Shown here in pieces: positions 7,690 through 20,035 of a DNA stretch of 36,346 nucleotides. Source of the stretch: Pseudorhodobacter antarcticus (GTDB lineage Bacteria > Pseudomonadota > Alphaproteobacteria > Rhodobacterales > Rhodobacteraceae); contig NZ_FOCO01000033.1 in assembly GCF_900110135.1 (NCBI RefSeq), positions 1-36,346 of the forward strand. The letters run 5' to 3'. The notes beneath the pieces were generated by a model that searched no databases, was not told the DNA's origin, and saw nothing but the letters and a program-made list of their open reading frames with translations. Positions within the stretch are counted from its first letter, which is position 1. The number at the start of each line of letters is the position of its first letter. The position numbers were made by a program, and so were the translations under genes.

Positions 7690-8076
7690 AATGCCGCGCT
7701 GCGCCCCCCCGCATACGTTCGGGGCCCGGGAGGAACCATGCCGGGGGGGACAGCATCGTTTCCGGCCCACTTCCTCCATGTTTGCGGATTTTATTCGCTT
7801 TTGTCTCCCATTTCATGCGCGGATTGAGAGACTTGGAACAAGTAAGGTCAGTTTCAATATCGGTTGAAAGTGAAGCAGCGACCGGAGAGGAAATCTGCGG
7901 TGACGGCACGTTTTTGAACTTAATTCCAGCGCCTAGGTCTCAAAATACGTCATAATCTGTGTCAATTTGCTTGCATACAAATCATACCTGCGTCATTTTG
8001 TTATACCTGTATGCTGTTGAATGTAAATGTTTCGGCCTAGTTTGAGTTTTTGATAAATGAACAACGGAGACAACTG
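7690..8076 (+). promoter_or_regulatory. Upstream region and ribosome site of the rhodopsin gene
   Basis: GC content falls sharply between 7900 and 8070, as expected for a strong promoter region. Possible boxes are TTGCTT at about 7967 and TATACC-like elements around 8000-8010, but none is a good consensus match and I do not assign one. A GGAGA ribosome site at 8065-8069 lies 7 bases before the ATG at 8077 and decides that start over an upstream in-frame TTG at 8050. No gene is seen in the rest of the interval. Confidence 0.45.
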
Positions 8077-8853
8077 ATGGAAACCCTATCGATAGGTCAA
8101 TACGACCTAATTTATAACGCGTTCTCGTTCGGCTTTGCGACGCTCGCGGCCGCAACGCTTTTCTTCTGGCTAGGTATTGGTCAGGTGAAATCGCAATACA
8201 AAACTGCACTTGTGGTTACCGGTTTGGTAACGTTCATTGCGGCCTACCACTACTGGCGCATCGGTCAAAGCTGGAGTGACGCGTACACACTCGTTGATGG
8301 TGTACACGTGCCTACTGAAATGGCCTTTAACTCTGCGTATCGCTACGTAGATTGGCTTTTGACCGTCCCGCTTCTTCTTGTCGAGTTGATCCTCGTGATG
8401 AGCCTTTCCAGATCCGAGACTGTGTCGCGCGCAACCAGCCTTGGTCTTGCAGCACTGCTGATGGTCGCCTTGGGATATCCGGGCGAAGTGTCAGACTCGA
8501 ACAACACTCGCTGGATCTTTGGTTTGTTGTCGATGGTTCCGTTTTTGTGGATTGTCTACCAACTGTACGCTGGTCTGGGCAGGGCGATCGAAAGTCAGCC
8601 AGAAAGCGCACGTGGCCTTGTACGTCTTGCGCGGAACGTAACTGTCGGCAGCTGGTGCTTTTATCCCGTCGTCTACTTTGCAGGTGCAGTTGGGCTTGAG
8701 GGTGCGACAGCGACAGTTGTGGTCGAAGTTGGCTACACAATTGCCGATATCATCGCGAAGGCCGGTTTTGGTGTGCTTATCTTCCTGATTGCAATGCGCA
8801 AGAGCGAAGATTTGGCCAACGTCGGTGGGGCAAAAGTAGTTCCCGCAGAATAA
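8077..8853 (+). CDS. Xanthorhodopsin-family light-driven proton pump
   Basis: This 258-aa, seven-helix microbial rhodopsin pumps protons outward using retinal. Helix C reads YRYVDWLLTVPLLLVELIL, with proton acceptor Asp92, Thr96 and donor Glu103 (the DTE pattern of proteorhodopsin and xanthorhodopsin). Leu100 is at the spectral tuning site, predicting green absorption. His58 lies in AAYHYWRI, as in xanthorhodopsin. Helix G (YTIADIIAKAGFG) holds counterion Asp224 and the retinal lysine Lys228. Gly149 in RWIFGLLSMVPF aligns with the fenestration glycine that lets xanthorhodopsins bind a carotenoid antenna. A hairpin terminator follows directly, then the genes for retinal synthesis. It looks intact. 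Codon use is less GC-biased than the flanking operons, suggesting transfer. Confidence 0.95.
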   Translation: METLSIGQYDLIYNAFSFGFATLAAATLFFWLGIGQVKSQYKTALVVTGLVTFIAAYHYWRIGQSWSDAYTLVDGVHVPTEMAFNSAYRYVDWLLTVPLLLVELILVMSLSRSETVSRATSLGLAALLMVALGYPGEVSDSNNTRWIFGLLSMVPFLWIVYQLYAGLGRAIESQPESARGLVRLARNVTVGSWCFYPVVYFAGAVGLEGATATVVVEVGYTIADIIAKAGFGVLIFLIAMRKSEDLANVGGAKVVPAE

Positions 8854-8859
8854 CGGCTT

Positions 8860-8894
8860 GGACCGCCCCCGAAGGTCGGGGGCGGTCCCCTTTT
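8860..8894 (+). terminator. Strong intrinsic terminator after the rhodopsin gene
   Basis: A perfect 13-bp GC-rich stem (8860-8872 pairing with 8876-8888), with a 3-base loop and a following TTTT at 8891-8894, starts 7 bases after the rhodopsin stop. It should end or reduce most transcripts before crtE, giving much more rhodopsin mRNA than carotenoid mRNA, or it may stabilise the rhodopsin message. The crt genes would then depend on read-through or on a promoter in the short 22-base gap, which has little room. Confidence 0.85.
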
Positions 8895-8916
8895 CTCACC
8901 AGACCGGTTTATTGGA

Positions 8917-9768
8917 ATGTTTGACACCAAATCAAAGATGACCATCTCGCTTGAAGATGTGGACGCCTACATGTTGCGTTGCACCTGCGAAACATCCTCA
9001 CCGGTATCCGATGCCGCGCGGTATCATTTGACAGCGGGAGGCGCGCGTGTCCGTGCTCGGATTGGACTGGACGCCGCCATCGCGCTTGGGTTGTCGCCAA
9101 CAACGGCGCTGGCCTGTGCTGCGGCCCCAGAACTTCTGCATAATGCGTCCCTAATTCACGACGACCTGCAGGATGGCGATGCACTGCGCCGCAACATGCC
9201 TGCGGTCTGGTCGCGCTATGGGCGGGATGCTGCGATATCATCCGGCGATCTGCTTATTTCAGCAGCTTATAAGGCAATCGCCTTACACCCAAATGCTGGC
9301 GCCGCCATTTGTGCGATGCACGACGCGGTTTCCGTCACGATCAGAGGCCAGGCGCAAGATTGCAGTGCAAGGAACCATTCATCAGAAGACTGCGCAGGCA
9401 TTGCTGCCGACAAGTCTGGCCCACTTTTGGCTTTGCCAGTCCGCCTTGCGTTAATTGCAGCTGACGCACCGGGCCAAGAAGTTGCGATCCGTGCCGGTCG
9501 CGCCATTGCAATTGCATATCAAACACTTGATGATTTCGTTGACAAGGCCGCCGATCGTGCAACCAGTGCGACCAATATATGCTTGTCACTTGAGGCAGAG
9601 GGCCACGACCCTGCAGCTGCCATCTCAGTTGCCCGCACTCGTGCGCAGGCCGCACTAATGTCCGCCAGACAAGACGCGCGCGATTTGCCAAACAGCGCGG
9701 GTACGCCGCTACTGACCCTTGTCAATCGACTTGAAGCCCAACTGAAGGAACTTGATAATGCCGCGTGA
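8917..9768 (+). CDS. crtE: Geranylgeranyl diphosphate synthase
   Basis: This 283-aa polyprenyl synthetase makes the C20 precursor of carotenoids from IPP and FPP. Visible motifs are GGARVRARI at 41-49 (substrate-binding, normally GGKRLRP), the first Asp-rich motif HDDLQD at 81-86 (short DDxxD form), and the second Asp-rich motif LDDFVD at 204-209. Length is slightly short for the family but all key aspartates are present. It opens the crtE-I-B-Y-blh operon, and its 3' end overlaps the crtI start by 11 bases. An internal ATG at 8938 is an alternative start; neither has a strong ribosome site. Confidence 0.9.
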   Translation: MFDTKSKMTISLEDVDAYMLRCTCETSSPVSDAARYHLTAGGARVRARIGLDAAIALGLSPTTALACAAAPELLHNASLIHDDLQDGDALRRNMPAVWSRYGRDAAISSGDLLISAAYKAIALHPNAGAAICAMHDAVSVTIRGQAQDCSARNHSSEDCAGIAADKSGPLLALPVRLALIAADAPGQEVAIRAGRAIAIAYQTLDDFVDKAADRATSATNICLSLEAEGHDPAAAISVARTRAQAALMSARQDARDLPNSAGTPLLTLVNRLEAQLKELDNAA

Positions 9769-11266
9769 TACATCTTTTTTGGGTCATCAGACGGCCATTG
9801 TCGCCGGTGCTGGTTTCGGTGGTATCGCAGCAGCTTTGCGCCTGCGGGCAAAAGGATATAATGTCCATTTGATTGATCGTTGCGCGCGTCTAGGAGGGCG
9901 TGGTCAGGTGTTCGAGAAGGAAGGATTTCGTCACGACGCAGGTCCAACGGTGCTGACGGCCCCACATCTGTTTCAAGAACTGTTCACGCTTTTTGGCGAG
10001 AATATGTCCGATTATGTGACGCTGGTGCAGCCAGACCCATGGTACCGGTTTCATTACCACGACGGCGAAACTTTTGACTACGGTCCGACCGAAAAGGCGA
10101 CCGAGGCTGAAATCGCGCGTCTGTCTCCGGGCGATGTCGATGGTTATCGCCGCATGGGGGCATGGTCCAAGAAAATATATGATGTCGGCTTCACCGGTCT
10201 GTCGGATGTGCCGTTTCATTCACTCGCTTTCATGATCAAGCAGATACCCGATCTTCTACGGCTTCGGTCGTATGAAAGCGTCTGGTCGATGGTGTCGCGT
10301 CACCTCAAAAGCGACAGGCTGCGCAGGGCGTTCTCGATTCAGCCCTTGTTGCTGGGCGGCAATCCTTTTTCGACCACGGCAATTTACGGCATGATCAATC
10401 ACCTTGAACGCGAACATGGCGTCTGGTTCGCCATGGGTGGCACCGGCGCTCTTGTAGATGCGTTGGAGCGGCTGATGCGAGAGCAAGGGATCAAGATTTC
10501 GCTGGGTGAAACCATTTCTCGGATCAAGGTCGAAGGTGACCGCGCAACGGGCGTAGTGCTCGAAACGGGAGAGGAGCTGGACGCCGATCTGGTCGTATCA
10601 AACATGGATCCTGTTCACGTCTACCGCGAGATGTTACCTGCGGCGCAGATTTCAAATGTCGCCAAGCTGCGCGTGAAAACCTCCAAGCTTTCCATGGGTC
10701 TGTACGTTTTGTACTTTGGGGCGACGAAGACTTGGCCGGACGTTGCACATCACACTGTTTGGTTTGGTGAGCGTTACAAAGACCTGCTGCGCGATATCTT
10801 CGAGAAAAAGAAGCTGGCCGATGACTTCTCGCTTTATGTGCATCGTCCCACGGCCACCGATCCCAGCTTTGCGCCTGAAGGGTGCGACAGCTTTTATGTA
10901 CTCTGCCCGGTTCCGAACCTGGCTGGCGGGCAGGACTGGGCGGTAGAGGGGTCAAAGCTGCGCGACCGGATTGTTGCGGCGCTGGATGCCTCAATGCTAC
11001 CGGGTTTGAAAGACCATATTACGGCAGAATTTGCCATGACGCCGGCAGACTTCAAGACCAACTACCTGTCCGTAGATGGCGCTGGGTTCTCGCTCTCTCC
11101 GTTCTTCACGCAATCGGCATGGTTCAGGTTCCATAACCGTGGCGAGGGGGTGCAAAACCTCTATTTTGTCGGCGCGGGCACGCATCCCGGCGCGGGCGTG
11201 CCCGGTGTCGTTTCCTCAGCCAAGGTTCTTGATCATTTGATCCCGGTGGCCGAGGCTGTCATATGA
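9758..11266 (+). CDS. crtI: Phytoene desaturase
   Basis: This 502-aa FAD enzyme introduces four double bonds into phytoene to give lycopene. The N-terminus has the Rossmann motif IVAGAGFGGIAAALRLRAKG followed by a LGGRGQVFEKEGFRHDAGPT stretch. The C-terminus has YFVGAGTHPGAGVPGVVSSA, the CrtI signature. Length is normal. The ATG at 9758 lies inside the end of crtE, with an AAGGAA ribosome site at about 9744-9749. The stop overlaps the crtB start as ATGA. The desaturation number (lycopene rather than neurosporene) is inferred from the cyclase and beta-carotene oxygenase genes downstream. Confidence 0.93.
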   Translation: MPRDTSFLGHQTAIVAGAGFGGIAAALRLRAKGYNVHLIDRCARLGGRGQVFEKEGFRHDAGPTVLTAPHLFQELFTLFGENMSDYVTLVQPDPWYRFHYHDGETFDYGPTEKATEAEIARLSPGDVDGYRRMGAWSKKIYDVGFTGLSDVPFHSLAFMIKQIPDLLRLRSYESVWSMVSRHLKSDRLRRAFSIQPLLLGGNPFSTTAIYGMINHLEREHGVWFAMGGTGALVDALERLMREQGIKISLGETISRIKVEGDRATGVVLETGEELDADLVVSNMDPVHVYREMLPAAQISNVAKLRVKTSKLSMGLYVLYFGATKTWPDVAHHTVWFGERYKDLLRDIFEKKKLADDFSLYVHRPTATDPSFAPEGCDSFYVLCPVPNLAGGQDWAVEGSKLRDRIVAALDASMLPGLKDHITAEFAMTPADFKTNYLSVDGAGFSLSPFFTQSAWFRFHNRGEGVQNLYFVGAGTHPGAGVPGVVSSAKVLDHLIPVAEAVI

Positions 11267-12114
11267 GTCCTGAGGCAACGATGGCGCGCCATGCGCGCAG
11301 TTTCGCTCCCGCAGCACGCATGCTGTCACGGTCAGACCGTGCGCGCGTTGCGCGCCTATACGTTCTGTGCCGGACCATTGACGACATAGCGGATGAGATC
11401 GGGGGCGATGTAGGTCGCGCTGAATTAGAGACGTTGCATGCGGATCTGGAGCGGATGGACACAACAAGCCTGCTTGCTGTCGAGGGCCGCGCGCTGTTTG
11501 CAGGGCGCCCCGACGGGATGAATGCGCTGCGCCAACTTGTGGCTGCGGCGGCGGCAGATACGGGGCGCACCTGTATCGCGGATGACAATGCGCTTGACAC
11601 CTACTGCATGGGGGTCGCGGGCACGGTCGGCGTCATGATTTGCGCGCTGTTCGACATCGACAGAGGCTGGCACAAGGCTGCAGCGGATTTGGGCAAGGCC
11701 ATGCAGCTGACCAATATCTGTCGCGACGTGGCAGAAGATGCTCGCGTCGGGCGTCGATACCTACCTTTTTCGCAATGTCCCTATCCGCCGGATGCCATCA
11801 CGGCAGGTGCGCCGGATGCCATCGCCGCCGCCTCGGCATCCATGGCGCATCTATTGCACCGGGCCGATGATTTCTATCTGACGGGTCGTCATGGATTGGT
11901 CGCACTACCGGTTCGGCTGCGACTTGCCGTGGCATCAGCTGCTGCGATGTATGCAGGGATCGGAACGGAATTACGCCGTCGTAACTATTCCCCGCTTCTG
12001 GGGCGTACGGTGGTTCCGGCTGAACGCAAAGTCGGGCTGGTCGTTGCAGCCCTTGTTCGTGAAACAACACAAGCATTAAAATCGGAAGTGAGGTCAGCGT
12101 ATGTCCGGATCTGA
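11263..12114 (+). CDS. crtB: Phytoene synthase
   Basis: The 283-aa product condenses two geranylgeranyl diphosphates to phytoene. It carries the two Asp-rich motifs of the squalene/phytoene synthase family: VLCRTIDDIADE at 34-45 and LTNICRDVAEDARVGRRYLP at 149-168. The latter includes the RDVAEDA magnesium site. It is a little shorter than many homologues (around 300 aa or more) but both motifs are intact. The ATG at 11263 overlaps the crtI stop by 4 bases and the 3' end overlaps crtY by 14 bases, showing tight translational coupling. Confidence 0.92.
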   Translation: MSPEATMARHARSFAPAARMLSRSDRARVARLYVLCRTIDDIADEIGGDVGRAELETLHADLERMDTTSLLAVEGRALFAGRPDGMNALRQLVAAAAADTGRTCIADDNALDTYCMGVAGTVGVMICALFDIDRGWHKAAADLGKAMQLTNICRDVAEDARVGRRYLPFSQCPYPPDAITAGAPDAIAAASASMAHLLHRADDFYLTGRHGLVALPVRLRLAVASAAAMYAGIGTELRRRNYSPLLGRTVVPAERKVGLVVAALVRETTQALKSEVRSAYVRI

Positions 12115-13210
12115 CGTTGATATTGCGATCCTTGGTGGCGGCTGCGCGGGGTTAAGCATGGCTATTCGCTTGGCGAAAAGTCATCTTTCGGTTCGGGTGA
12201 TCGAACCCCGGGCCGAATATGTTGATGATCGGGCTTGGAGTTTCTGGCGTACCCGCAGCGATCCGTTTGAGGATTGCGTGCGCAAAGAGTGGACATCTTG
12301 GACCGTGGCTGGACCGAACCATCAAAGCACACGAACATCCGCCCATTTGCGGTACCAGACGATTGAGTCTGGCGCGTTCTACACCCGCGCGTGTGAGTGT
12401 ATCGATCAGGGTCAGGGTACATCGCTGTCAATGGGTGTCACTGCCAACGACGTTATTCGGGCGGGCAAGAACTGGAGAATCGAGACGAATGCCGGGGCGT
12501 TCACGGCCCGAACAGTGATAGACACGCGGCCACCAATGCGTGTGCCCGTTTATGGTCAATTCTTTCTGGGTCGCGAAATCCAGACAGAACGGCATGTCTT
12601 CGATCCCGATGTCGTGCAATTGATGCATTTTCGCCCGGCGCGAAGTGCGGGCGTTGATTTCGTCTATATCCTTCCGTTTGCGCCCGACCGCGCATTGGTC
12701 GAGGTAACGTCGTTCGCACCTCATAACCCGGGGCCTGATGTGTTTGGGCCTTGGTTGGACGCCGAGATAGATGCTCTTGATCCCGGCAAAACCGAAACCC
12801 TGCGTACCGAAGCGGGCGCTTTGCCGATGGAAGCAGGGTTTGCTGATCCTGAAGTCCAAGGGATCATTCGCATGGGATTAGGGGGTGGTGCTGCGCGACC
12901 GTCAACCGGGTATGCGTTTAGCCGAACCCAGATTCAGGCAGATCAGGTAGCCGCCGCACTGATAAAAGGTAATACTCCGAAAACCAGTCTCGATGGCCCG
13001 ATTACCCGTTTCATGGACCGCGTATTCCTTCAGGTTATGAAAACAAATCCTGCACGCGGACCCGCTTTGTTCGAGGCGTTATTTCGAAATGCGCCGAAAG
13101 ATCGCTTGGAAAGGTTTCTGTCGGGCTCGACGAGCACGTTTGACCGGTTATCGGTTATGGCGTCACTGCCGCCGATGCCTTTCTTGCGGGCTGCCGCATT
13201 CCCGGCATGA
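12101..13210 (+). CDS. crtY: Lycopene beta-cyclase
   Basis: This 369-aa flavoprotein cyclises both ends of lycopene to give beta-carotene. The N-terminus has DIAILGGGCAGLSMAIRLAK, the dinucleotide-binding motif of CrtY, followed by DDRAWSFWRT, which matches the conserved aromatic patch after the Rossmann fold in bacterial CrtY. The middle region has FVYILPFAPDRALVEVTSF and the C-terminal third has MGLGGGAARPSTGYAFSRTQ, another family signature. Length is normal. It overlaps crtB at the 5' end and blh by 4 bases at the 3' end. It gives the beta-ionone rings needed for retinal. Confidence 0.92.
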   Translation: MSGSDVDIAILGGGCAGLSMAIRLAKSHLSVRVIEPRAEYVDDRAWSFWRTRSDPFEDCVRKEWTSWTVAGPNHQSTRTSAHLRYQTIESGAFYTRACECIDQGQGTSLSMGVTANDVIRAGKNWRIETNAGAFTARTVIDTRPPMRVPVYGQFFLGREIQTERHVFDPDVVQLMHFRPARSAGVDFVYILPFAPDRALVEVTSFAPHNPGPDVFGPWLDAEIDALDPGKTETLRTEAGALPMEAGFADPEVQGIIRMGLGGGAARPSTGYAFSRTQIQADQVAAALIKGNTPKTSLDGPITRFMDRVFLQVMKTNPARGPALFEALFRNAPKDRLERFLSGSTSTFDRLSVMASLPPMPFLRAAAFPA

Positions 13211-14091
13211 CCAGTTCTCCCGCTTGGCAAACTTGGCTATTCATCTGTGCTGCCGCCTTTGCCGTCGTTTTGACAGGCCTGCTAGAACCCGACCTGACTA
13301 CTCAGGTTTTCCTGCTTGCGCCCTTTGTTGCCGTGATTGGCCTGCCCCATGGCGCACTTGACTTGTCGATCGCAAAGGTGCTTTGGCCTCTTCGAGGGTG
13401 GCATGGAAAAGTTAAGTTTGTCAGTCTTTATCTAAGCCTTTCTGCTCTGATCGTTATTTTCTGGATTTTGTTCCCAAGCGCATCTCTGTTCGCATTTCTG
13501 ATCTATTCCGCGGTTCACTTTTCGGGTGATTGGAGTGACAGCCCCACTGCTTTGCGATGGTGCGGCGGTGCTGCAACCATCGGGGGGCCAGCGCTGTTTC
13601 ATCAGGGCGATGTTGCGCATATCTTCGGATACCTCGTGCCCGAATCCGCTGCTAATCTTGCAACAAGTTGCCTAGTCATTGCTGGCGGCACAGCCTTGGT
13701 GATCTTCGTCGCAATGCTGATATTGCAACCGACAACGCGCACCCGCGCAGCGGCAGAGCAGGCAGCGATATGGCTTGCCGCAGGTTTACTTGTCCCACTT
13801 GTCTACTTCATCGTCTATTTTTGCGTATTGCACTCCGTGCGGCACACTGTAGCCACGATCGAGTCGCTAAAAGACCGCAAGGACGCATTGCTGACTGCGG
13901 GATTTTTATCTGCAATCACGGCCTTGATGGCAGTTTCAAGTATTCTCTTTCTGGATAGCTTCAAGGCAGGTTTGATTGTGGAGAGCATTTCTCAAACCGT
14001 CTTCATAGGATTGGCAGCCTTGACTATTCCCCACATGATTCTTGTTGATCGATTCCAGCGTCGCAGCCACCATTTGGCAGAGGCATTATAA
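13207..14091 (+). CDS. blh: Beta-carotene 15,15'-dioxygenase, Brp/Blh family
   Basis: This 294-aa membrane protein cleaves beta-carotene into two retinal molecules, the chromophore of the rhodopsin upstream. It has about eight hydrophobic segments and the conserved His motifs of the family: GLPHGALDL near 45-53, SAVHFSGDW near 101-109, VLHSVRHT in the second half, and LTIPHMILVD near the C-terminus. These histidines hold the catalytic iron. It is the last gene of the cassette and overlaps crtY by 4 bases. No terminator is evident after it. The next gene lies on the other strand in phage-like sequence. Confidence 0.93.
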   Translation: MTSSPAWQTWLFICAAAFAVVLTGLLEPDLTTQVFLLAPFVAVIGLPHGALDLSIAKVLWPLRGWHGKVKFVSLYLSLSALIVIFWILFPSASLFAFLIYSAVHFSGDWSDSPTALRWCGGAATIGGPALFHQGDVAHIFGYLVPESAANLATSCLVIAGGTALVIFVAMLILQPTTRTRAAAEQAAIWLAAGLLVPLVYFIVYFCVLHSVRHTVATIESLKDRKDALLTAGFLSAITALMAVSSILFLDSFKAGLIVESISQTVFIGLAALTIPHMILVDRFQRRSHHLAEAL

Positions 14092-14273: not shown

Positions 14274-14930
14274 CTATCGCGTCCACGGCCGCTCCTTCGG
14301 CATCGCAGCCGTTACCTCGACATCCCGCAGCATGCGCCCCGTCACCAGCCCATCCTGCACCCAATCCAATGCCTGCCACCAATCCTCATACCCGCGACGA
14401 GCGGAGGTGATCTGTTCGGGATGCGGCCGCCAGGTTACCGGACAGGCCCGCACTTCGATTGTCCGCCATTTGTCGCTGACCAGTACTTTTTCGGTGCCGA
14501 CAACGACGCTGACGGCACGATCGCCATGGCGGTTGCGCTTCATATCAACCGGCACGCAGCGCGGCACTGCGCCGGGCATCCAGTTGGGCGTAATCCCAGC
14601 GCGCGCCATTTCGGCCACGCTGATCGCCATCCGGATGCCACCGAGGCTGTCAGGCATTCCCGCGACGGCGGCGGCGATCACCTCTGCGTCGGGATGGGTG
14701 TAGCTGCCCATCTTGTGCTGCCCGCCGTCAACTTTGCAGCCCAGCGCTGCGCGTTGCAGCAGGACATATTCCAGCCCAAAGCCAAAGCCCTCTTCTGAGA
14801 CGTTCTTTGACACTGGCAGTTCCAGCTGTGCCCTTTCCACTCGAAAAGCCCATTCCAGCGCTGCTTGCACGCCTAGTGGGCGTTTCACCTTTGTGCCGCC
14901 GATCCGTCCGATCCGTCCCTGCATGCTCAT
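14274..14930 (-). CDS. Phage/mobile-element protein of unknown function (218 aa)
   Basis: The ATG at 14930 overlaps the TGA at 14927 of the second-frame ORF of the methyltransferase region. The protein begins MSMQGRIGRIGGTKVKRPLG and includes FGFGLEYVLLQRAALGCKVD, MARAGITPNWMPGAVPRCVP, WRTIEVRACPVTWRPHPEQI and a Trp-rich YEDWWQALDWVQDGLV region. I recognise it only as a protein that follows cytosine methyltransferase genes in rhodobacteral prophages. No catalytic motif, membrane segment or signal peptide is visible. It is the last gene of the leftward early operon; the expected packaging genes do not follow. Confidence 0.65.
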   Translation of the reverse strand: MSMQGRIGRIGGTKVKRPLGVQAALEWAFRVERAQLELPVSKNVSEEGFGFGLEYVLLQRAALGCKVDGGQHKMGSYTHPDAEVIAAAVAGMPDSLGGIRMAISVAEMARAGITPNWMPGAVPRCVPVDMKRNRHGDRAVSVVVGTEKVLVSDKWRTIEVRACPVTWRPHPEQITSARRGYEDWWQALDWVQDGLVTGRMLRDVEVTAAMPKERPWTR

Positions 14931-16189
14931 GGCTGCAATCCTTCAAAGAGGTTCATCTGCGATGGGCCCTCCGGCCCTTCGCTTGGTCGCCAGATCCAAG
15001 GGCCCAAGACCATGGGCAGCTGCGAGAGAGCGCCACGCATGCGATGCTGCCAGAGGGTGAACTCCGTTGCCGAGCAGGCGCAGAGCGCGTGCCCGATGGG
15101 CCAACCCATCAGCCATCCGACGAAGAGCGGATTGAGCCGCCGCCGTGCTCGGGCTTTCAGGATCCGCCGCGAGACGACGGGCCCATGCGAGGCAATCATT
15201 GAAGCCCACAGCGGGCGCGAGATCGGGGCGTGATGCGAGGGTCGCAGCCCATCCGGCGTGATCGCCGGGTCCGGGCGGGTGAAGCCCTGTTCCGCCCGGT
15301 AATGCAGAATATCCATCCGGGACTTGCCATCCGCCCGCATGATGTTGCCTTCGCTCGATCCCCTCCAGTTCTGCGCCGCCGGTGTCGGCCATTGGATTGC
15401 CTGTGCACTCAGCTTCGGCTCGCCCCGGCTGTTGATCTTGCCGCGCAGCCGGTCCATCTGGTCGTCGGCCACCGGCGTTTGCCATTGCGCCGCCTGCGCT
15501 GGCAGGGGCGGCATCCCGCCCGAGCCATAGCTCTGCCCCGGTCCGCCCTTCGCGCCATCCGTCGCTTTCGGTGTCGACCAGTTGCTGATGCCCAGCGCCA
15601 GCGCTTCGGCCTTGCGGGTGAAATCGCTGTTCCCGGCCGGGTTGTAGCTGGCAGTGCCGGGATGCAGGCTCATCGGTGTGGGCCAGGATGAAGATGCGGA
15701 TCCGCTGATGCGGCGCGCCGACTTCAGCCGCAGAGAACAGACCCGCCGCAGGCGAGTAGCCCATGTCCCAAAGCTCTCGCAGCACGGTTTCAAGACCGAG
15801 GGTGACATGCCCGGAGACGTTTTCGAGGAACACCCATTCGGGGCGGCATTCGGCGATGACGCGGGCGACCTCGGGCCAGAGGTGGCGGGGATCGTCGGCA
15901 CCTCCGCGCTTTCCGGCGGCACTGAAGGGCTGGCAGGGGTATCCGGCGAGGATTGTGTCGAAGGCACCACGGAAAGGTCGGGCGTCGAAACTGCGCAGAT
16001 CATCCCAGATTGGCGCGGGCGCAAAATACCGCGCGGCTTGGGCGGCGATGAGGACAGCGCGGGGCCAGTCCTCCCACTCGACGAAGGCGCGAGTGTGATA
16101 TCCGGGTTCGGCCAGCATGAGGCCCAGATCAAGGCCTCCGCCGCCTGCGCAGAGGGACAATCCATGCCGGGGACGCGACACCATGCCAT
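14927..16189 (-). CDS. Second-frame ORF within the methyltransferase gene (WxTP-repeat protein-like)
   Basis: A second long frame (420 codons) overlaps the methyltransferase almost completely. Its first 165 residues look like a shadow. From residue about 167 (position 15685 leftward) it becomes protein-like, with spaced SWPTPMS, NWSTPKATDGAKGG, QWQTPVADD and QWPTPAAQNW motifs. It then has RRLNPLFVGWLMGWPIGH and WQHRMRGALSQLP, a pattern I know from C-terminal regions of phage cytosine methyltransferases. Its TGA at 14927 overlaps the next gene's ATG at 14930, as for a translated gene. It may be a real overprinted gene, the product of a frameshift from the methyltransferase frame, or a fossil. 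No certain start can be given. Confidence 0.4.
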   Translation of the reverse strand: MAWCRVPGMDCPSAQAAEALIWASCWPNPDITLAPSSSGRTGPALSSSPPKPRGILRPRQSGMICAVSTPDLSVVPSTQSSPDTPASPSVPPESAEVPTIPATSGPRSPASSPNAAPNGCSSKTSPGMSPSVLKPCCESFGTWATRLRRVCSLRLKSARRISGSASSSWPTPMSLHPGTASYNPAGNSDFTRKAEALALGISNWSTPKATDGAKGGPGQSYGSGGMPPLPAQAAQWQTPVADDQMDRLRGKINSRGEPKLSAQAIQWPTPAAQNWRGSSEGNIMRADGKSRMDILHYRAEQGFTRPDPAITPDGLRPSHHAPISRPLWASMIASHGPVVSRRILKARARRRLNPLFVGWLMGWPIGHALCACSATEFTLWQHRMRGALSQLPMVLGPWIWRPSEGPEGPSQMNLFEGLQP

Positions 16190-16193
16190 TCAC
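14943..16193 (-). CDS. DNA (cytosine-5) methyltransferase, phage type
   Basis: This 416-aa product carries the m5C methyltransferase motifs in order: I (LSLCAGGGGLDLGLML, about 13-28), IV with the catalytic Cys (ILAGYPCQPFSAAGKRGG, about 82-99), VI (VFLENVSGH), VIII (GAPHQRIRIFIL) and X near the C-terminus (RLLGNGVHPLAASHAWRSL). It should transfer methyl groups to cytosine C5 to protect phage or element DNA or regulate it. The variable region between VIII and X is dominated by ADT/ANA-type repeats that share nucleotides with WxTP repeats in another frame. The GTG start at 16193 overlaps the upstream stop by 4 bases. No partner endonuclease is adjacent, so it is probably solitary. Confidence 0.85.
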   Translation of the reverse strand: MNGMVSRPRHGLSLCAGGGGLDLGLMLAEPGYHTRAFVEWEDWPRAVLIAAQAARYFAPAPIWDDLRSFDARPFRGAFDTILAGYPCQPFSAAGKRGGADDPRHLWPEVARVIAECRPEWVFLENVSGHVTLGLETVLRELWDMGYSPAAGLFSAAEVGAPHQRIRIFILAHTDEPASRHCQLQPGREQRFHPQGRSAGAGHQQLVDTESDGWREGRTGAELWLGRDAAPASAGGAMANAGGRRPDGPAARQDQQPGRAEAECTGNPMADTGGAELEGIERRQHHAGGWQVPDGYSALPGGTGLHPPGPGDHAGWAATLASRPDLAPAVGFNDCLAWARRLAADPESPSTAAAQSALRRMADGLAHRARALRLLGNGVHPLAASHAWRSLAAAHGLGPLDLATKRRAGGPIADEPL

Positions 16194-17224
16194 CTAATTC
16201 CCCGCATCCGGAGCTGTTCGGCCGTGACCAAGCCCCGGCCCAGCATTGCGTCTCGGACGGTGTTGTTGATGGCGCTGACGGGCAAGTAGCGATCAGAATT
16301 GATGATCTCGGCGTAAAACACCGGCAGATCGATGATTGGCTTCACCGCCGGTGCCGGATCGGTTTTACGCTTGCGACGCTTCCGACCCGAACTTTCCGAC
16401 TTGCGCTGGGCTGCACGCTGCATGGCGCGGTCCAGCGCCTTTGGCCCATCGGGTGGTTCGGGATGATCGTGGCGCGTGTCCTTCGCCGCCGAGACGATCT
16501 CGGCCTCGGTCAGCCCCAGCTCGGTGCGCCAGCGCTGGACGTGCAGTTGGGGCGGCCAACCCTGCCACCAGCCCGGCAGGGCGGCGGGGTCCAGGCCCAG
16601 CGCCAAAATCAACTCTGCGAAAAACTGATCAAATTCGAAATCGCGCGCTTGCGCGTCCTCCTCCTCCTTTACTGGTTTTCTTAAAGGTTCTCTTACAAGG
16701 TTAGTGTCCCAATTTGAGACACGGGAATCGCTGTTTTTGAGACACGGGATTGCGTCAAAATGAGACACGGGCCCGTGTTCCAGATCGAGACACGGCGTCT
16801 GCGATATTTCTTGCGCCAACCCATTGTCAGAGCGCATTTTTTCCGTGTTCGTGCCGTGTCTCAAATTAGGACACGGGATATGAGGGTCGAAAGGTGCGTT
16901 GTCGCCTGTTTCTGGCGGGTTCTTGCCGCTCGGTCCTGGAGAAGTAAAACTTGGCTCGAAGCTGAGAAGGTACCGTGTCGGTCGATGCTGGCCTGTCCGC
17001 AGATCGACATTCCGGATCCGCCGGATAAGACCGCGCGTCTCCAGATCATCGAGATGGCGGTTCAGGGTAGCGCGCCCGATTTCGCAATCATGCGCAAGCC
17101 GCTCTTGTGAAGGAAAGCAGCCGTAATCCGGATTGAACCGATCACACAGATGCCAGAGCAATATCTTGGTGGTGGGCTTCAGCCCGCGCTGCTGGATGGC
17201 CCAATTGGTAGCGGCATGGCTCAT
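16190..17224 (-). CDS. Winged-helix replication-initiator-like protein
   Basis: This 344-aa protein starts with a winged-helix domain: GLKPTTKILLWHLCDRFNPD at 15-34, GCFPSQERLAHDCEIGRATL, then HLDDLETRGLIRRI. Residues 115-175 are a repetitive linker whose DNA carries the iterons. The C-terminal half contains LGLDPAALPGWWQGWPPQLH and WRTELGLTEAEIV, then a very basic stretch, and ends with IINSDRYLPVSAINNTVRDA. The layout (N-terminal HTH, iterons in the middle of the gene) parallels lambdoid O-type initiators. It lies between VRR-NUC and the methyltransferase with 4-base overlaps on both sides. I am confident of a DNA-binding early phage protein; initiator function is inferred. Confidence 0.65.
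   Translation of the reverse strand: MSHAATNWAIQQRGLKPTTKILLWHLCDRFNPDYGCFPSQERLAHDCEIGRATLNRHLDDLETRGLIRRIRNVDLRTGQHRPTRYLLSFEPSFTSPGPSGKNPPETGDNAPFDPHIPCPNLRHGTNTEKMRSDNGLAQEISQTPCLDLEHGPVSHFDAIPCLKNSDSRVSNWDTNLVREPLRKPVKEEEDAQARDFEFDQFFAELILALGLDPAALPGWWQGWPPQLHVQRWRTELGLTEAEIVSAAKDTRHDHPEPPDGPKALDRAMQRAAQRKSESSGRKRRKRKTDPAPAVKPIIDLPVFYAEIINSDRYLPVSAINNTVRDAMLGRGLVTAEQLRMRGIR
16705..16879. repeat. Iteron-like GAGACACGGG repeats inside the replication-like gene
   Basis: Copies on the plus strand are at 16713-16726, 16736-16750, 16758-16771, 16783-16795 (core gagacacgg) and 16866-16879 (ggacacggg). One inverted copy is at 16854-16867 (ccgtgtctc), and partial inverted copies are at 16705-16711 and 16772-16778. 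The first four are spaced about 22-25 bases, so they lie on nearly one face at two helical turns. Because the gene is read from the other strand, the repeats also give a repeated peptide pattern (PCL/PVS ... WD/FD). Confidence 0.75.
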
Positions 17225-18166: not shown

Positions 18167-18733
18167 GTGTTTTCTCCAGTGTAAGTGCCCGAATGCGGGC
18201 AAATGCTGCTGGCCATTCACGCATATCGCTGGGGGTGGCAGGGAGGCACGGGGTGGCACGAAATCCGTCACCCTCGTGCCACCCCTTGTTTTACTGGCTT
18301 TTTGGCGATCTCAGCTCCGTTGGTTCGCAGTCTCGCTGCACTGCGGCAATCCGGTTCAATGCGCTTTCGCGTTCATTCCTATGCAAATCGCCTTGTTCGC
18401 GGGCTTTCGCGCGCATTGGCGCGCAAACAGGGGGTGGCAACGTGCACAAACGCGTGCCACCCCCTGTTTTATTGACGATTTTGCACATCTCGCCCCTTCC
18501 GGCCGTGATTCTGGCCGCCAACGGCATGTGTGGGTGGAAATATTGATCGATGACACGGGGCACCGCTCAGGCTGGAAACCGGCCCAGCGCGCAAATTCCC
18601 AATAAAACAGGGGGTGGCACGCCCACTGTCTCCAGCGTGCCACCCCGTGCCTCCCTGCCACCCTCAGGGCCATGCTCTGCTTGATAGAGGGCGCGATCTA
18701 CGCGTCATGACAGGGCAAGAGAAAGGTATTCAG
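18167..18733. promoter_or_regulatory. int/xis intergenic control region (candidate attP/operator region)
   Basis: This 567-base interval between the divergent excisionase-like and integrase genes has no convincing gene. It is filled with copies of a GGGGTGGCA(CG) element in both orientations, described as a separate repeat feature. An AAAGG ribosome site lies about 9 bases before the integrase ATG at 18734. The interval should hold both promoters and binding sites for the recombination proteins. Confidence 0.6.
18231..18663. repeat. Array of inverted and direct GGGGTGGCACG repeats
   Basis: A perfect 28-bp inverted repeat pairs 18233-18260 with 18636-18663. Nested inside, a 12-bp perfect inverted repeat pairs 18250-18261 with 18274-18285, and a 15-bp perfect inverted repeat pairs 18425-18439 with 18455-18469. 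A 20-base module (gtgccacccc, then ctgttttatt) recurs at 18276 (imperfect) and 18454 and, inverted, at 18601-18620. Spacings are irregular and no unique spacers of constant length exist, so it is not CRISPR. It looks like an arm-type or operator array. Confidence 0.8.
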
Positions 18734-20035
18734 ATGGTGAACAGACAGAAACTGACGGAAGTGATCGTGCGCGAGGCCGAACCTGCGGAGGGTCGGGATT
18801 ATCAGATCTTTGATACCGAGGTGCGCGGTTTTGCCGTTTGCATCTACCGCGGTGGTGGTCGCGCCTTCACGCTGGATTATCGCTACGCCAGTCGGCAACG
18901 CCGCATGACCTTTGGCCGCTGGCCGGAATGGAGCGTGTCGGCAGCACGCACGCGCGCCAAAGAGTTGCGCCGGGACATCGATGCGGGGGGCGATCCATTG
19001 GCGAACAAGGATGCCCTGCGCGAGGCACCCCGGATGACGGATCTGATCGCGCGCTACGTCGCGGTGCACCTGACGCATCTGGCCAAGCTCAATGCGGGCG
19101 ATCAGCGTTCAATGATGGAGAAGTTCATAGGACCTGCCTGGGGCAGGATGCTCGTGACCGAGGTCAGCTCCTACGATGTGGAACTGCTGCTGAACAAGGT
19201 CGCCGAGGGGCGCGCGCGGCCTGCCAAAGCAAAGCCCAACAACCGAGCACGCAAGCTGCAGGGCGCAAAGCCCACGCCCGTGCGGGCAAACCGGGTCGGC
19301 GAGGTGGTCAGAAAGATGTTCGCCTATGCCGTCAAATGGGGCTGGCGCGAAGATAACCCGGCCATGGGGTTTCGCAGGCGAATGGAAACGCCGCGCGAAC
19401 GATATCTGTCGCAAGATGAACTCAGCCGCCTCGCTGCCGCCCTTGACGCTTCCCACGATGATCGTGGCGCAGGGATTATCCGGCTGTGCATGTTGACCGG
19501 GGCGCGCGTGGGCGAGGTGCGTCAAGCAAGATTCGAGGATTTCAACCTCGAACACCTTTCATGGACCAAACCCGCGACGACGACAAAGCAGCGCCGCGTG
19601 CACCGCGTGCCGATTTCTGACGAGGCGGCTGCCATCGTGCGCCAGCGCCGCCTTGTGGTGCTTTCTGGATCGCCGTGGCTGTTTGCGGGCGATACGCCCG
19701 GCCAGCCTGTACAGGAAATCCGCCGCTTCTGGGCGCGGATCCAAAAGGAGGTTGGCATCCCTGGCGTGCACATCCACGACCTGCGCCACACCTTTGCATC
19801 GCTGCTGGTGAGCGGTGGCGCCTCGCTCGAGATGATTGGCAAGCTGCTTGGCCATAGCCAGATGCAAACCACCCAGCGGTATGCGCATTTGATGGACTCG
19901 CCGTTGCGCGCGGGTGTCGATGCCGTCGCCAATGCCTTCAAGCCCAAGCCCCGCCTCGTCCACACCGCAGAGCCAGCTTCGGCATCGATGACCTCGCGCA
20001 GTGGGCCCGGCCGGGTTACCGCTTCGGCTTCTTGA
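18734..20035 (+). CDS. Tyrosine recombinase/integrase (DUF4102-type N-terminus)
   Basis: The 433-aa protein has the N-terminal P4-integrase-like arm-binding domain (VRGFAVCIYRGGGRAFTLDY), a central SAM-like core-binding domain and a C-terminal catalytic domain. Catalytic residues can be placed: Arg258 in TGARVGEVR, Lys285 in TTTKQRRVH, His348/Arg351 in HIHDLRHTFAS, His374 in LLGHSQMQTT and Tyr383 in QRYAHL. All are present, so it may be active. The ATG at 18734 has the better ribosome site; 18707 is an alternative. Integrases of this type often use tRNA genes. The only tRNA trace here is the fMet fragment at 32231, 12 kb away, so a link is possible but unproven. Confidence 0.88.
   Translation: MVNRQKLTEVIVREAEPAEGRDYQIFDTEVRGFAVCIYRGGGRAFTLDYRYASRQRRMTFGRWPEWSVSAARTRAKELRRDIDAGGDPLANKDALREAPRMTDLIARYVAVHLTHLAKLNAGDQRSMMEKFIGPAWGRMLVTEVSSYDVELLLNKVAEGRARPAKAKPNNRARKLQGAKPTPVRANRVGEVVRKMFAYAVKWGWREDNPAMGFRRRMETPRERYLSQDELSRLAAALDASHDDRGAGIIRLCMLTGARVGEVRQARFEDFNLEHLSWTKPATTTKQRRVHRVPISDEAAAIVRQRRLVVLSGSPWLFAGDTPGQPVQEIRRFWARIQKEVGIPGVHIHDLRHTFASLLVSGGASLEMIGKLLGHSQMQTTQRYAHLMDSPLRAGVDAVANAFKPKPRLVHTAEPASASMTSRSGPGRVTASAS

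Follow-up and report, generated by a model that had tools for sequence, protein, structure and literature searches.

The window considered here, a stretch of 36,346 nucleotides (nt) of Pseudorhodobacter antarcticus (contig NZ_FOCO01000033.1, positions 1 to 36,346), holds an integrated element (prophage) that has on its minus strand a cytosine-C5 methyltransferase gene open in two reading frames; an integrase gene (18614-20035) adjoins. Both frames are conserved protein-coding sequence, in regions that are complementary and in part common to the two. As judged from the sequences compared below, frame 2 is almost certainly a real overlapping gene, and the two proteins probably make up a single C5 DNA methyltransferase comparable to M.EcoHK31I. 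The features of the gene are:

14943..16193, minus: frame-1 open reading frame (ORF), GTG start, 416 amino acids (aa); C5 methyltransferase, proposed large catalytic chain
14927..16189, minus: frame-2 ORF, ATG start, 420 codons (420 aa); overlapping second protein, probable small chain
16187..16193, minus: tandem start GTGAATG, with frame-1 GTG at 16193-16191, upstream stop TGA at 16192-16190 and frame-2 ATG at 16189-16187
16200..16203, minus: GGGG, possible common Shine-Dalgarno (SD) element; spacing 6 nt to the GTG, 10 nt to the frame-2 ATG
15668..15670, minus: inner frame-2 ATG (codon 174), alternative start; ATG in 62/64 relatives
15294..15686, minus: variable region, frame-1 codons 170-300, with the four frame-2 WxTP copies; selection on frame 2 only
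15000..15233, minus: C-terminal dual-coding region, codons 321-398, with low omega in both frames
15089..15136, minus: frame-2 sequence LNPLFVGWLMGWPIGH, the putative motif IX, immediately preceding motif X of frame 1
16160-16119, minus: frame-1 motif I, named by eye
15938-15921, minus: frame-1 motif IV, PCQPFS, named by eye
15824-15816, minus: frame-1 motif VI, ENV, named by eye
15707-15690, minus: frame-1 motif VIII, QRIRIF, named by eye
15089-15045, minus: frame-1 motif X, GNGVHP, by inspection
15685-15674, 15580-15569, 15484-15473 and 15391-15380, minus: the four frame-2 WxTP copies

A first-pass annotation had described two ORFs in two frames of one methyltransferase gene, and both are present. 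It let frame 2 run from about 15685 to 14927; the end is right, whereas the frame is in fact open across the whole gene from the ATG at 16189. Its bookkeeping of the four WxTP copies, which are read from the very bases that give AHT, VDT, ANA and ADT in frame 1, is exact, and its two overlaps are confirmed as well, that of the frame-1 GTG with the upstream TGA and that of the frame-2 TGA with the ATG of the gene that follows (ATGA). All core motifs had been assigned to frame 1; this holds for motif X, but an element like motif IX is found in frame 2. Motifs I-VIII are thus in frame 1, the variable region and the motif IX-like element in frame 2, and motif X again in frame 1. Frame 1 matches phrog_363 (8.6e-56, aa 12-393). 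Frame 2 matches phrog_1008 (8.8e-18, aa 79-375) and phrog_27243 (471 bits), the profile of the latter starting at the residue of the inner ATG (codon 174).

That frame 2 is kept open was seen in relatives collected from viral contigs by two scans, one per frame (78 and 76 loci, largely on the same contigs); wherever both frames were found on one strand, their phase was identical. For the clade to which the window belongs (clade 1, GC content about 68%) 85 loci were taken, two of which (L074 and L076) are fragments that gave no frame 1. The start sequence RTGAATG, in which the frame-1 GTG or ATG lies over the upstream stop and is followed by the frame-2 ATG, was used as a filter; 71 loci and the window passed it, 68 of them unique and 64 of usable length. 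None of these 64 unique full-length relatives has an internal stop in frame 2, whereas the other sense frame contains 5 to 14 stops and the antisense frames on average 4.6 to 9.2. For the window gene alone, synonymous permutation of frame 1 predicts 3.7 frame-2 stops (P(0) = 0.0025). With 20 thinned sequences (codons 3-400) 75.5 stops are expected from synonymous shuffling of the frame-1 codons and 0 were observed, a count that does not represent independent trials because the sequences of a clade are related. The third frame behaves as expected (164 stops observed versus 180.8), as do 20 other genes of the window (281 versus 270.5) and the upstream (182 versus 153.9; 19 genes) and downstream genes of clade 1 (132 versus 116.3; 18 genes). 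Since the control genes come near expectation, and none of them is free of stops, the test can be considered calibrated. In clade 2, 81 loci were collected, from which L185 and five loci without a recognised start pair were dropped; of 68 unique sequences 67 were used, and 65 of these lack an internal frame-2 stop, one has a single stop and one has no visible end stop.

The two frames are under selection in different parts of the gene. Pairwise differences in clade 1 are largest at the third positions of frame 1 in codons 21-140 and at the first positions, which are the third positions of frame 2, in codons 181-300; in codons 321-400 all positions vary little. For the ratio of nonsynonymous to synonymous change (omega), single-base changes were counted by their effect in both frames (clade 1: 52 sequences, 1326 pairs; clade 2: 50 sequences, 1225 pairs). 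In clade 1 omega is 0.05 (0.03-0.08) for frame 1 and 0.59 (0.33-1.11) for frame 2 in codons 21-165; it is 1.01 (0.62-1.67) for frame 1 and 0.05 (0.03-0.08) for frame 2 in codons 170-300; and in codons 321-398 it is low for both, with 0.13 (0.05-0.26) and 0.08 (0.04-0.15), respectively. The matching regions of clade 2 gave for frame 1/frame 2 values of 0.07/0.54, 0.97/0.04 and 0.03/0.06. By these regional omegas the catalytic part is under purifying selection in frame 1, the variable region in frame 2 and the C-terminal part in both frames, which was the outcome of the per-frame check that the first-pass annotation had proposed. The same annotation had held that frame 2 would be only a shadow of frame 1 if relatives regularly had frame-2 stops and no frame-2 selection were found; the opposite was found, with single exceptions such as L040. 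Within the variable region the first WxTP unit of L064 is degenerate. Two further observations belong here. The third-position variation of frame 1 is very low (0.01-0.08) in the first 10 codons of clade 1 (window 16130-16186, minus), where there could be constraint on the start region or on the N-terminus of frame 2. And in L071 (2912-3750) the catalytic part is missing, but a highly conserved frame 2 remains from about codon 171 onwards.

Frame 2 is also found at lower GC content. It is open from about codon 61 in Lacticaseibacillus phage R9.1 (GC 0.48) and across nearly the whole enzyme in phage C75C1 (GC 0.48). Scans with the frame-2 proteins of these two phages matched at least 593 and at least 224 relatives, of which 80 each were kept (groups A and B, GC 0.43-0.63). 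Although these had been found by frame-2 similarity alone, all 160 carry an overlapping C5 enzyme in the expected phase, by which the two functions are tied to each other; frame 1 reaches to within 20 codons of the end of frame 2 or beyond it in 77/80 and 72/80, respectively. The variable region of both groups aligns badly, and third-position profiles were calculated from 78 (A) and 73 (B) sequences, relatives with an early-ending frame 1 (3/80 and 8/80) being left out. In group A the difference at frame-1 third positions is about 0.6 before the start of frame 2 (about codon 61), 0.29-0.46 in codons 76-165, 0.14 at the LNP element (the motif IX-like element) and 0.57 just past the frame-2 stop. 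Synonymous constraint here ceases where frame 2 stops, and no other single sign of a probable translation of frame 2 is as clean as this match of boundaries in group A. For group B the value at the LNP element is 0.06, rising to 0.59 in the two windows that follow.

What frame 2 may contribute is suggested by what frame 1 lacks. The match of frame 1 to the C5 methyltransferase profile PF00145 (1.4e-32, aa 12-194) covers profile positions 4-180 of 324 only, and the two other copies in the genome cover 4-164 and 4-166, as compared with about 2-322 for ordinary enzymes; in all three the motif IX part of the profile is missing from frame 1. The LNPxFVxWLMGWPxG element of frame 2 (15136-15089) stands on the DNA directly before motif X (15089-15045), so that the parts follow one another as in ordinary C5 enzymes (I-VIII, variable region, IX, X), except that the variable region and the proposed IX are read in the second frame. 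Of 285 unique relatives, 225 have an LNP element that a model built from 16 ordinary C5 C-termini fits at one and the same position, namely the L of motif IX. Moreover, there are loci in which the LNP element is joined to motif X. In L376 the one follows the other in a single frame (10.7 bits). On an Embleya plasmid (L429:777-1995) the gene is split after motif VIII, and a second ORF in +1 phase contains PTP, LDPAFVEWLMGLPPGW and GNSVVP in one frame; this locus is possibly an intermediate between split and overlapping arrangements. Taken together these data support the LNP element, at the level of sequence, as a candidate motif IX. A single-frame fusion of the catalytic motif with the LNP element was sought and rejected: in 0 of 376 element segments (419 loci) is a PCQPFS-type motif found upstream in-frame, the segments not being independent because the two source scans hit largely the same contigs (285 are unique with a slightly wider pattern).

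We therefore propose a two-chain enzyme because the frame-2 element stands where the motif absent from frame 1 would be expected, because of the frame-2 stop depletion, the frame-specific omegas in two clades, the synonymous constraint at low GC and the overlapping enzyme in 160/160 low-GC relatives, and because L376 and Embleya join the LNP element to motif X and M.EcoHK31I provides a precedent. Frame 1 would be the large chain, responsible for S-adenosylmethionine (SAM) binding and catalysis and contributing motif X; frame 2 would be the small chain, supplying the variable region with the WxTP repeats and a motif IX. Both chains would be translated from the tandem start GTGAATG after the upstream stop and would then associate, target recognition would reside in the frame-2 chain, and the pair would have methylation activity.

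Two-polypeptide C5 methyltransferases are known, a link that the first-pass annotation had not drawn. M.EcoHK31I (YGGCCR) is naturally split (PMC3439449) and has motifs I-VIII and X in the large chain and only motif IX in the small one, the predicted target-recognition domain being in the large chain (PMC3404938). Frame 1 of the window resembles this large chain in having I-VIII and X in one polypeptide without IX. In M.EcoHK31I the small chain (176 aa) is reportedly, in work by Lee, Kam and Shaw of 1995, read from another frame of the large-chain gene, as the second chain of the window would be. The second frame of the window differs in spanning the gene from its start to beyond its end. The comparison is one with the description of M.EcoHK31I; the enzyme was not identified among the plasmids and Escherichia coli genomes, and the three E. 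coli neighbourhoods examined are prophages. Near the prophage gene of the window no restriction enzyme was seen, no search aimed at one having been made. In M.AquI (CYCGRG), another two-polypeptide enzyme, motifs IX and X are both in the small chain (PMC3404938); the split of the Embleya locus resembles that of M.AquI, whereas in the window motif X is in the large frame.

It should be noted that a number of findings weigh against a two-chain enzyme or against parts of it. The evidence for motif IX is weak in its scores: the median of the motif IX model is 0.9 bits (-3.1 with reversed and -3.5 with shuffled sequences), only 4/285 relatives score above 5 bits, one shuffled control reached 6.1 bits, and alignment of the frame-2 element to motif IX by hhalign gave E 0.0099 with a probability of 4%. 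No Pfam match was obtained for frame 2 of the window, nor for the Embleya ORF with both elements; two AlphaFold2 models of frame 2 are poor (pLDDT 58.7 and 36.8). Over its first 165 codons, frame 2 is not clearly under amino-acid selection in either clade, and in the short loop before the dual region its omega is 0.22 in clade 1 and 1.02 in clade 2, with wide intervals. Two windows of group B have third-position values that are not low (0.49 and 0.53). L040, which the RTGAATG filter had dropped, has a frame-2 stop (TAA) before the end of frame 1, and in L016/L101 (one contig), L172 and L185 frame 1 is interrupted and frame 2 intact. Finally, the variable region is selected in the second frame, frame-1 omega there being 1.01 in clade 1 and 0.97 in clade 2, whereas the target-recognition domain of M.EcoHK31I is predicted to be in the large chain. 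Besides, a PDB profile search with frame 2 of group A gave no match up to E 10.

Among the alternatives, the one that survives best is that frame 2 is a genuine overlapping gene with a separate function, for example a regulatory, an accessory or a counter-defence function. The selection on frame 2 was seen without a direct link to activity, frame 2 has no known domain, L071 keeps it from about codon 171 without the catalytic part, and in L016/L101, L172 and L185 it is intact beside an interrupted frame 1. We nevertheless consider this unlikely, as 160/160 relatives carry the enzyme in the other frame and the frame-2 element replaces a motif missing from the enzyme, the same element that L376 and Embleya join to motif X.

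Considerably less probable is programmed frameshifting, in which ribosomes would enter in frame 1 and change frame (+1 or -2) at about codon 165, yielding a second C-terminal form. It would agree with the finding that in both clades frame-2 amino-acid selection sets in close to where the catalytic domain ends, and with the published small chain supplying a C-terminal motif. But frame 2 is free of stops also upstream of that point, in the first 165 codons, where 33.9 are expected in clade 1 and 23.0 in clade 2 and none was observed in either, and it has start codons of its own. The RTGAATG start is present at 77/80 loci on genome contigs, with an SD-like sequence shortly before the frame-2 ATG in 74 of the 77; the ATG is at codon 2 in 63/64 relatives, a set that had been chosen for the RTGAATG start. 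In clade 2 the two starts are 4 nt apart (e.g., ATGCATG) at 75/80 loci examined. In group A and in Escherichia phage K1H the start of frame 2 is internal, and stops close frame 2 upstream of the internal ATG. SD-like sequences precede the first frame-2 start more often than other ATGs (group A 51/78 versus 285/1229; group B 34/78 versus 245/1318). A slippery site had been suspected near 15690; codons 140-185 of the window contain neither a homopolymer of 4 nor a slippery heptamer (X XXY YYZ). Because of these start codons and SD-like signals, the stop depletion upstream and the lack of a slippery sequence, tandem or internal initiation is favoured over frameshifting, although it is so on sequence grounds. 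Of the three options that the first-pass annotation had offered, true overlapping coding is thus strongly supported and programmed frameshifting disfavoured, whereas ancient frame switching in the target-recognition region fits the anatomy; openness and conservation are, however, retained in both frames.

That frame 2 is a mere open shadow of a GC-rich frame 1, as the GC content of about 68% in clade 1 and the lack of a Pfam family might suggest, is rejected by the calibrated permutation test, by frame-2 omegas of 0.05 and 0.04 where frame 1 is neutral and by the identical architecture at GC 0.43-0.63, and has next to no chance of being correct.

Equally remote is an out-of-frame homing element inside the methylase gene. 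Within the literature searched, the nearest case is the ShiLan out-of-frame HNH element, in which a second frame is likewise open through a phage methylase gene (PMC11855218), and one relative, Komagataeibacter phage phiKX1, carries an HNH ORF in its second frame. The ShiLan element is a homing endonuclease insertion, whereas frame 2 of the window has no nuclease domain and overlaps conserved codons of the enzyme, including those of motif X; frame 2 of the window has no Pfam match, to HNH or to another nuclease family, and neither HNH nor any other nuclease family was found in 70 frame-2 proteins of group A, and phiKX1 has frame 2 besides its HNH ORF. This ORF (L256:2673-3041; PF01844, 3.2e-6) lies in the small-chain frame just past the small-chain stop, between the LNP element and motif X, where frame 1 is open too (543 aa); it is mostly absent from the gene list of the record and resembles the ShiLan situation. 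From its annotation phiKX1 seemed to have a stand-alone frame-2 gene, which was rejected since frame 1 is present, with the catalytic domain and GNAIV near the end of its 543 aa.

The frame-2 family is not confined to the window. phrog_1008, which together with phrog_27243 represents the same protein family as frame 2 of the window, is matched by frame-2 proteins of both clades and of both low-GC groups; it is named DNA methyltransferase, a name that hides its second-frame nature. Matches to phrog_1008 are present in 29/149 genomes of the host family and in 17/299 of the phylum, and one frame-2 query matched 169/50,697 phage records. In the genome of the window there are two clade 1 copies and one clade 2 copy, three in all; the other two-frame loci are C20:24828-25625 (L420) and C61:19471-20199 (L421), one per clade. 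Among the best 80 of 450 relatives, the named genome contigs with close relatives are mostly from Rhodobacterales.

In annotations one of the two proteins is often missing because gene finders tend to avoid long overlaps on the same strand. For example, in Acidovorax phage Alfacinha1 frame 2 is annotated as the enzyme, and the enzyme itself is missing there and in Komagataeibacter phage phiKX1. In Escherichia phages K1H and fKuEco01 and in Paenibacillus phage Shelly both frames are annotated as genes without explanation, the record of Shelly noting the second as 'g55 internal gene'; in K1H, which differs in this from the window, frame 2 starts about 30 codons inside frame 1. A related methyltransferase in a prophage of E. 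coli Ec1117 (L568:1863-3032) is annotated as two partial pseudogenes, which could reflect decay or an annotation misled by the two frames. The open-licence literature searched, as far as its text was available, contains no paper that treats phage C5 methyltransferases as a family with a second, overlapping frame; within it, the breadth of the arrangement in phages and the indication of a target-recognition region in the second frame appear to be new.

The neighbouring genes in the element are:

16190..17224, minus: upstream gene, replication initiation O-like (phrog_345, 9.4e-20); shares its frame with frame 2
14274..14930, minus: downstream gene (phrog_9306, 3.2e-53, a family of unknown function); its ATG overlaps the frame-2 stop (ATGA)

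Directly adjoining the integrated element is a run of genes on the plus strand (8050-14091) that looks like a retinal-rhodopsin cassette, a rhodopsin-like gene followed by five genes similar to crtE, crtI, crtB, crtY and Brp/Blh (named by eye).

Naturally split methyltransferases have been used for targeted methylation (PMC3439449). If the two-chain enzyme proposed here is real, cloning only the annotated ORF could yield an inactive or misassigned enzyme, and the origin of sequence specificity in this group would become directly testable. The pair would then be, to our knowledge, among the most widespread long overlapping gene pairs known in phages. We give an even chance to the wider idea that many phage C5 methyltransferases are two-chain enzymes made from one DNA segment in two frames, the second frame providing the target-recognition region and motif IX and the in-frame variable region being a by-product linker. 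If so, it would be the second frame that determines their specificity, and many of the phage methyltransferases now annotated would amount to half an enzyme.

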